Part shown: positions 26,296 through 28,047 of the stretch, piece after piece
Numbering within the stretch: position 1 is the stretch's first letter
Layout: each line of letters starts with the position of its first letter
NCBI GenBank assembly: GCA_021789915.1
Contig: JAJYIV010000008.1
Location: 1-42,469 of the forward strand
Length of the DNA stretch: 42,469 bases
Source: a bacterium
Lineage (GTDB): Bacteria > Patescibacteriota > Patescibacteriia > UBA9934 > GWF2-40-263
Reading direction: 5' to 3'
The notes under the pieces: generated by a model
What the model was told of the DNA's origin: nothing
Seen by the model: the letters and a program-made list of their open reading frames with translations, nothing else
Database searches by the model: none
Position numbers and translations under genes: made by a program

Positions 26296-27585
26296 ATGAC
26301 GCGTTTTTTCGTCCCGGGCTCCCATCCCGCCTTGTCGCTCGCGGAGCTTGCCGCCGTCCTCGCGACGGGCGACTTTTCGCGTTGCACGGACGGCGTGTTT
26401 CTCGTCGAGACGGATCGCGGCGCCGAGGAACTGCAAGCGCGTCTGGGAGGCGTCGTGAAGATCGGCCGCGTCGTCGGCGAGCTTCCCCGCTACAACGTGG
26501 CCGCGGCCGCCGATGTGCTCGTGGATTTGGCACGCCGCACGTCAGAGGCAAGCGAAGGAAAAATCTCTTTCGGCCTGTCCGTATACGACGCGGGCAACAA
26601 AAGTATGACGGCACAGCTCAAAAAAGACCGTCAGCGCGTCGGACTGGAAATGAAGAAGCGGTTGAAGGTCACCGCCTCTTTCCAAGAGGGGGCTGTGGGG
26701 AGTCCGCGCAGCGTGCGCTATGTCGACTCGAAGGAACCGAATCTGTCCGCCGTGATCGTAACGGAAAACGGCCTGCTGGAAAGCGGCGGCGAGTATTGCC
26801 TGATGGCTGCGCCGACGCGCGTCTATGTCGGCCGGACGGAAACCGTGCAGGATTACAAAGAGTGGAGCCGGCGCGATTACGGACGGCCGGCGAGCGACGC
26901 AATCTCCGGCATGCTGCCGCCCAAGCTCGCGCGCATGATGGTGAACATGTCCATGACCCCCTCTGGCGGCAGAATCTCCCCCTTGCAAGGGCAGGGGGAG
27001 ATGTCTCGCACAAGCGAGACAGAGGGCGTCTCGCTTCTCGATCCGTTCTGCGGATCCGGCACGGTTCTCGTCGAAGCCGGTTTGCTCGGCTTCGACCGCC
27101 TCATCGGCAACGATCTGGAAGCGAAAGCCGTCGCGGATACCAAGAAGAATGTCGCGTGGGCCGGACTCGAAGCGGACATCATCCAGGGCGACGCGGCCAA
27201 CATCGCCGAGCGTGTGCGTGGGCCGGTCGATGCCGTGGTAACCGAACCGTATCTCGGCCCGCCGCGTCTCAAAAAGCCAACGCCTAAGGAGGCAGGCCTC
27301 ACGGTCGGCACATTGATGACGCTGTACGAACGGTCGTTCATGTCGATCCACTCCCTGCTCGCCGAGGGCGGCCGATGCGTCGTCGCATTTCCCGTGTTCG
27401 AGACCACGGAGCATCGCCTATTCCTTCCGCTTGCGCCGATGCTAAAAAAGATCGGCTACAAGATCGTCGTACCCGTGCCCGACACGGCGCCGATCGCCTT
27501 CAAGGAGCGCACGCCAAACGGCGGCTTGCTGTATCGCCGCCCGGATGCCATCGTCTCGCGCGAGATTCTCGTGGTGGAGAAATGA
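26296..27585 (+). CDS. Trm11/TrmG10-like THUMP-type RNA methyltransferase with repeat-derived in-frame insertion
   Basis: RRDYGRPASDAISGMLPPKLARMMVNMS, LLDPFCGSGTVLVEAGLLGFDRLIGNDLEAKAV, AVVTEPYLGPP. Confidence 0.85.
   Translation: MTRFFVPGSHPALSLAELAAVLATGDFSRCTDGVFLVETDRGAEELQARLGGVVKIGRVVGELPRYNVAAAADVLVDLARRTSEASEGKISFGLSVYDAGNKSMTAQLKKDRQRVGLEMKKRLKVTASFQEGAVGSPRSVRYVDSKEPNLSAVIVTENGLLESGGEYCLMAAPTRVYVGRTETVQDYKEWSRRDYGRPASDAISGMLPPKLARMMVNMSMTPSGGRISPLQGQGEMSRTSETEGVSLLDPFCGSGTVLVEAGLLGFDRLIGNDLEAKAVADTKKNVAWAGLEADIIQGDAANIAERVRGPVDAVVTEPYLGPPRLKKPTPKEAGLTVGTLMTLYERSFMSIHSLLAEGGRCVVAFPVFETTEHRLFLPLAPMLKKIGYKIVVPVPDTAPIAFKERTPNGGLLYRRPDAIVSREILVVEK
26955..27030 (+). repeat. Palindromic repeat R1 inside the methyltransferase CDS
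   Basis: GACCCCCTCTGGCGGCAGAATCTCCCCCTTGCAAGGGCAGGGGGAGATGTCTCGCACAAGCGAGACAGAGGGCGTC; outer stem plus two hairpins. Confidence 0.9.
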
Positions 27586-27631
27586 CCCCCTCTGGAGCAG
27601 AGTCTCCCCCTTGCCTTGCAAGGGGGGAGAT
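27584..27631 (+). repeat. Palindromic repeat R2 at the methyltransferase stop / DUF559 5' flank
   Basis: GACCCCCTCTGGAGCAGAGTCTCCCCCTTGCCTTGCAAGGGGGGAGAT. Confidence 0.9.
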
Positions 27632-27639
27632 CCCATCCC

Positions 27640-28047
27640 ATGGCCTACCGATGCCGACACGACCAAATTCCACTGCGACGGCTGCTGCGAAAAAAGCAGA
27701 CTCCCATTGAAGCTCTCCTCTGGGCGCGATTAAGGGACAACCGTCTGCATGGCCTGTCATTTCGACGACAACACGGCATCGGACCGTTTATCGTCGACTT
27801 TTTCTGTCCAAAAAGCCAGCTGGCCATCGAGATAGACGGATCGCAGCATTTCACTCCCGCTGGAAAAGTCTACGATGAAGAACGGACGCTTTATCTGACA
27901 TCCCTTGGCATCCGCGTGATTCGATTTTCAAACGCCGAAGTGAATAAGGATGTCGAAGCCGTGCTGGAAGCCGTCTTGCAGGCAAGTCGCTTCTCCCCCT
28001 CGGAACGAGGGGGAGACTCTGCCGCCAGAGGGGGTCTTTCGCCATAA
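27640..28047 (+). CDS. DUF559 (Vsr/VSR-like) endonuclease-domain protein
   Basis: KKQTPIEALLWARLRDNRLHGLSFRRQHGIGPFIVDFFCPKSQLAIEIDGSQH...RTLYLTSLGIRVIRFSNAEV. Confidence 0.9.
   Translation: MAYRCRHDQIPLRRLLRKKQTPIEALLWARLRDNRLHGLSFRRQHGIGPFIVDFFCPKSQLAIEIDGSQHFTPAGKVYDEERTLYLTSLGIRVIRFSNAEVNKDVEAVLEAVLQASRFSPSERGGDSAARGGLSP
27991..28035 (-). repeat. Palindromic repeat R3, inverted relative to R2, encoding the DUF559 C-terminus
   Basis: Reverse complement GACCCCCTCTGGCGGCAGAGTCTCCCCCTCGTTCCGAGGGGGAGAA. Confidence 0.9.

Follow-up and report, generated by a model that had tools for sequence, protein, structure and literature searches.

A DUF559 nuclease gene between inverted intrastrand-triplex motifs as a probable repeat-bounded mobile element

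The window, which is the whole stretch of 42,469 nucleotides analysed here, contains a gene coding a DUF559 protein of 135 aa (ATG at 27640, stop codon at 28045-28047) downstream of a UPF0020-type methyltransferase gene. The DUF559 gene is real, as the original prediction had it, and is flanked by two copies of a repeat, R2 and R3, in opposite orientation; a third copy, R1, is located in frame within the methyltransferase gene. All three repeats were confirmed where they had been predicted (Table 1). The stop codon TGA of the methyltransferase gene shares two bases with the start of R2, and the 3ʹ end of the DUF559 gene overlaps R3, from which the last ~20 residues of the protein are read, also as predicted. 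R2 and R3 matched in inverted orientation at 73% over 37 nt, and the inverted match of the flanks scored 31, well above the score of dinucleotide-shuffled flanks (11.7 +/- 1.6).

R1 was 97% complementary to R3 over 29 nt. It consists of a triplex motif (26955-27001) followed by a hairpin and a second tail up to 27030, and the residues it adds to the methyltransferase were absent from the homologs in relatives. In this in-frame insertion R1 resembles the Rickettsia palindromic elements, which are palindromic repeats inserted in frame in protein genes. When the 42-kb window was scanned with the strict motif detector, four motifs were found, three of which were R1, R2 and R3 within 1.1 kb. The fourth was called more weakly, some 250 bp ahead of R1, and is possibly a decayed copy from a second insertion, or a chance match.

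The source genome (1.06 Mb) possessed five DUF559 genes. Related palindromes were recognized by eye on both sides of the copies L005, L006 and L007, and the inverted flank score was above that of every one of 200 shuffles for L006 and L007, while for L005 a single shuffle was not exceeded. L006 (C41:22445-22765) contained an in-frame TAG stop, thus decay is apparent in at least one of the five.

Table 1. Coordinates of the genes and repeats in the window.
Feature	Position	Strand	Evidence
UPF0020-type methyltransferase gene, host of R1, upstream of DUF559 gene	26296..27585	+	
Weaker triplex-motif call inside the methyltransferase gene	26673..26703	+	Strict TM detector
R1, solo element without nuclease gene	26955..27030	-	~18 extra residues compared with 29 homologs
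R2, triplex motif at the upstream end, third strand outwards	about 27584..27631	-	Repeat comparison, TM detector
DUF559 (PF04480) gene, Vsr/EDxHD-type PD-(D/E)XK nuclease	27640..28047	+	PF04480 E 3.8e-32, AlphaFold/Foldseek
R3, triplex motif at the downstream end, inverted relative to R2, third strand outwards	about 27991..28036	+	Repeat comparison, TM detector

The repeats had been described as palindromic. This was correct for the hairpin part but not for the full unit, which is longer and consists of a hairpin and a third strand, R1 being tailed at both ends. R1, R2 and R3 are class II intrastrand-triplex motifs (TMs) of the boxC/PIT/TM_ECO kind, in which a pyrimidine arm, a loop, a purine arm, a short linker and a third strand mirroring the purine arm follow one another. 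The motifs are ~32-47 nt, with a hairpin such as CCCCTCC..GGAGGGG and a third strand such as GGGGTGG, in which A is matched by T or A. The G-rich tail usually begins ~3 nt after the purine-rich 3ʹ arm and mirrors it, as in the arm-linker-tail combinations AAGGAGGGG-TTA-GGGGTGGTT, AAGGGGGAG-TCT-GAGGGGGTT and AGGAGAGGG-ACA-GGGTGAGGT. The same mirror correspondence (G to G, A to T or A) was found in R1-R3, with linkers of about 11 nt, some containing a small hairpin, instead of the typical 3 nt.

Judged from this pattern, the G-rich tail is predicted to be an antiparallel purine-motif third strand. The mirror rule was obeyed by 170 of 354 hairpins (both strands counted), compared with 41 (maximum 52) when the arms were shuffled, and 178 distinct combinations of stem, linker and tail were obtained. 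We also considered the tail as an ordinary second Watson-Crick arm, but this was rejected, as the reverse-complement model fitted 30 motifs and the mirror model 170. Folding in vitro was shown for the E. coli motif in the boxC/TM survey of 2015 by Holder et al., which reported no mobility activity near the E. coli motifs and mentions neither DUF559 nor endonucleases (PMC4666352).

In Pfam, the window gene matched DUF559 (PF04480) and, more weakly, MTES_1575 only. The residues E24, D53, E64, D66, H70 and D79 were invariant in 14 homologs, and by the profile together with these conserved catalytic residues the protein belongs to the DUF559/EDxHD Vsr-like nucleases. The predicted structure (AlphaFold, pLDDT 84) was closest in Foldseek to NGO0050 (PDB 3hrl), followed by the homing endonuclease I-Bth0305I (3r3p; profile E 1e-4, Foldseek 3e-4), while AbaSI/PvuRts1I matched more weakly and Vsr was found beyond E 0.05. 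The model also matched several mitoribosome proteins of Toxoplasma and Tetrahymena. YcjD of E. coli was earlier predicted to be a PD-(D/E)XK nuclease (PMC1189080), and the Caulobacter DUF559 protein VsrA was tied to DNA damage and SOS in a report that does not mention palindromic repeats (PMC12907096).

The enrichment of the repeats around DUF559 homologs had been named in advance as a check of the original prediction. It was examined in 80 DUF559 loci from Bacteroidota, several CPR phyla, Nitrospirota, Desulfuromonadales, cyanobacteria, proteobacteria and others. As these loci had been collected for their similarity to short DUF559 proteins of the CPR type, they represent that subfamily type, and the genome collections held one genome per species. 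With the strict detector, 160 of 209 motifs were located within 250 bp of DUF559, where the density was 3.6-4.8 per kb compared with ~0.1 per kb further out, an enrichment of about 50-fold across phyla. Of the 80 loci, 67 had a TM no more than 400 bp from DUF559 and 44 had TMs on both sides; about 16% had none within this distance. The inverted flank score was at least 20 in 62.5% of DUF559 loci and in 0.8% of control intervals. An independent count gave TMs at 25 of 32 CPR DUF559 loci. Of 41 additional loci, from related genomes and from genomes with several copies, 38 had TMs when a laxer linker was allowed, and 34 had them on both sides. The observation is far more general than one window could show.

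That G-rich composition and the shared ancestry of neighbouring DNA merely mimic this association is hardly credible. The motifs are indeed low in complexity and rich in G+C, but the reversed-sequence control gave one motif against 209, TMs were found at none of the 30 Y1_Tnp loci of the same relatives (the single control family), and dinucleotide shuffles and the existence of non-syntenic copies with unrelated flanks also argue against it.

The nearest TMs were inverted in 74 (86%) of the 86 loci that had strict TMs on both sides, 49 of them tail-in and 25 tail-out, and the other 12 were mixed. Always-inverted flanks can be rejected as a rule: whole 250-bp flanks matched better as direct repeats in 25 of 84 loci, owing to composite double elements that recur on the two sides.

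Repeat load in relatives was higher in the presence of DUF559 (median 5) than in its absence (median 1, p 0.0035). Repeats common in genomes lacking DUF559 would have spoken against the original prediction, and this was partly the case: at least 5 repeats were present in 6 of the 34 relatives without detected DUF559 (G004, G017, G025, G052, G054 and G058), though loads remained significantly higher with the gene. TM-rich genomes without DUF559 are as expected of surviving solo copies. No convincing DUF559 relic was found between TMs at ten repeat sites in G004, G017, G019 and G022. The PF04480 profile search gave no match in the control E. coli genome, though ycjD is annotated as DUF559 in MG1655.

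TM-DUF559-TM moves between genome sites as one piece. In non-syntenic copies, DNA homology began and ended at the outer TM edges, for example at -92 and +107 in the pair L206/L207 (TM edges -88 and +101) and at -80 and +56 in the pair L107/L103 (TM edges -79 and +56). In Pontibacter (50 genomes), a 451-bp unit with the ends AAAGTCCCCCTTTGAAGGGGGCAGGGGGATGA was found at unrelated loci; its gene body was ~70% identical and its 32-bp ends were near-invariant, while the flanks were unrelated. Comparison of relatives for empty sites, which had also been proposed, showed that some species had the Pontibacter gpx-argS site filled, many had it empty, and one had a solo palindrome there. In Pedobacter alluvionis (L201), the unit was tandemly duplicated, with 509 bp at 97.8% identity, identical domains and triplex motifs as boundaries.

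Derivatives without the gene were present as well. In the CPR relative G019, both distinct arms of the cassette were joined without the gene at three loci (L297, L298 and L302), and the arms also occurred singly, some apparently within coding genes as far as the frames could be followed by eye. By the same inspection, triplex repeats or two-arm elements at L294, L297 and L298 of this genome apparently lie in methyltransferase-like and ksgA-like genes.

Target-site duplications of length at least 5 were found at 3 of 86 loci, compared with 1.5 expected, thus none beyond chance. The DUF559 unit lacks what characterizes DDE insertion sequences and MITEs, namely a DDE transposase and target-site duplication, and the gene gave no transposase match. 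A RAYT/Y1 transposase was rejected as mobiliser, as the source genome contained only a contig-edge fragment and Y1 loci in relatives were free of TMs.

The main rival explanation, which we regard as unlikely though not negligible, is a homing-type selfish gene: DUF559 would cut at or near chromosomal TMs and be copied into the break, so that TMs serve as targets and homology arms and spread by other means. After NGO0050, the nearest solved relatives are the I-Bth0305I EDxHD homing endonucleases, which share the fold and profile family and are likewise selfish single-gene nucleases; plentiful solo TMs could be the targets, the lack of target-site duplication fits, and a solo palindrome occupies one orthologous Pontibacter site where others hold the cassette. 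This palindrome, however, could equally be a deletion scar, many empty gpx-argS sites contained no TM at all, and the homologs of the coding gene into which R1 is inserted give no sign of an earlier TM. Therefore, TM units enter sites without TMs. The homing enzyme is intron-encoded, whereas the DUF559 gene has its own inverted terminal repeats, and the copies of its unit are at unrelated sites with non-autonomous offspring.

TM type was paired with the type of DUF559 protein. Over all loci, similarity of the TM stem followed protein similarity (rho 0.20, beyond all 500 permutations). Among paralogs within single genomes, the relation to protein similarity was reached by 4 of 5000 permutations for the stem and by 14 of 5000 for TM orientation; an earlier form of the within-genome test, in which loci were incompletely assigned to genomes, gave 114 of 5000. 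Phylogeny was corrected only in part in these permutation tests. In Pontibacter fetidus, two paralogs with 82% identity both had CCCCCTTTGAAGGGGG in tail-in orientation, and two others with 73% identity both had CCCC(G/T)CCTTAGACAAGGAGGGG in tail-out orientation. On the protein tree, TM orientation required 20 changes, compared with a minimum of 23 in 200 shuffles.

The original prediction had allowed that the cassette is a passive passenger of repeat activity. This reading is disfavoured by the way TM type follows DUF559 clade within individual genomes. In a broader form, in which unrelated host or transposon activity moves the TMs and DUF559 is either carried along or kept to resolve hairpin or triplex lesions at TMs, it seems improbable to us. 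It could draw on the TM-rich genomes without DUF559, on the link of TMs to genome instability in the literature (PMC4666352), and on the tie of Caulobacter VsrA to DNA damage and SOS (PMC12907096). A general repair role, however, does not predict that paralogs in one genome should each retain a particular TM subtype and orientation; the gene-less elements correspond exactly to the ends of the cassette, and Y1_Tnp, the tested control family, was not bracketed.

We consider it likely that the DUF559 nuclease drives the repeats in a RAYT/REPIN-like manner with an unrelated enzyme and, to the same degree, that the window contains one copy of such a repeat-bounded single-gene mobile element, TM-DUF559-inverted TM. 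The proposal that DUF559 is the nuclease of this repeat family gained support from the 50-fold enrichment, the absence of TMs at Y1 loci, the mobility of the unit and the gene-less derivatives. What is shown is a unit that moves, together with its cognate repeats and its non-autonomous derivatives; we infer catalysis by DUF559, its cut site and the joining. DUF559 may recognize its cognate TM extruded as a hairpin or triplex, for instance where DNA is single-stranded at a fork, and may nick or cut at the foot of the extruded TM, probably the hairpin foot. Host repair would then copy or paste the unit elsewhere. Host repair is invoked because a PD-(D/E)XK hydrolase is not known to be able to join strands itself; we know of no strand transfer by enzymes of this fold. 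R1 and the dispersed boxC/PIT/TM repeats would be non-autonomous offspring, like the REPINs of RAYT loci. Several points weigh against the mobile-element model: the model does not account for strand joining, some TM-rich genomes (such as G004 and G017) have no detectable DUF559, some loci lack TMs, no target-site duplication fixes the insertion chemistry, and ycjD has TMs only downstream.

The DUF559 unit works like RAYT/REPIN but is not a member. Both have a single nuclease gene between inverted short palindromes with cognate pairing, non-autonomous paired and solo repeats, and no target-site duplication. The fold here, however, is PD-(D/E)XK/Vsr, whereas RAYT (TnpA_REP) is an HUH Y1 transposase (PF01797), which is absent from the DUF559 unit, and the repeat is a triplex motif instead of the GTAG-tagged REP. 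MITEs and IS200/IS605 share terminal or subterminal hairpins, small size and gene-less derivatives with the DUF559 unit, which has neither a DDE nor an HUH transposase; IS200/IS605, like the DUF559 unit, make no target-site duplication. With boxC/PIT/TM_ECO the repeats share the pyrimidine arm, the purine arm, the mirrored third strand, the ~3-nt linker and the inverted pairs, and the E. coli copies adjoin the DUF559 gene ycjD. Unlike the motifs as published (PMC4666352), the TMs here frame a nuclease gene across many phyla and are mobile together with it.

No earlier report of a link between TMs and DUF559 was found in the open-access literature. To our knowledge, the triplex-forming repeats of bacteria, known for about two decades, have lacked an explained origin, and the widespread protein family DUF559 has no settled function; the two now appear to explain each other, and the long-known boxC-type repeats likely gain a driver. 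On balance, though with less assurance than for the mobile element itself, we favour DUF559 proteins as mobilisers of a widespread class of elements whose triplex-hairpin ends are recognized as structure, with the boxC/PIT/TM repeats of E. coli, Neisseria and hundreds of genomes as non-autonomous descendants. If true, a class of mobile elements with the RAYT/REPIN way of life would have evolved independently from a Vsr-like nuclease and non-B-DNA ends. E. coli K-12, with ycjD and boxC, offers a direct test system, and for NGO0050, which is flanked by TMs, a crystal structure is already available (3hrl).

The ycjD gene was present in 3366 of 5426 E. coli genomes, MG1655 included, and adjoins TMs, as does NGO0050 of N. 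gonorrhoeae, which belongs to the same group. The TMs of ycjD were found only downstream, with no sign of recent movement. In the sapF-fabI interval (L163-L166), ycjD and the efflux operon eefRABCD were alternative occupants, a swap that was already described (PMC12817139). E. coli was thus rejected as an empty-site system, because strains without ycjD hold the eef operon and no clean empty site is left. The nrdA-nrdB slot was likewise rejected as a precise empty site. At this intergenic position (nrdB-nrdA, L240-L246), some strains had boxC/TM and others had REP/BIME-like repeats, as if two unrelated repeat systems replaced each other.
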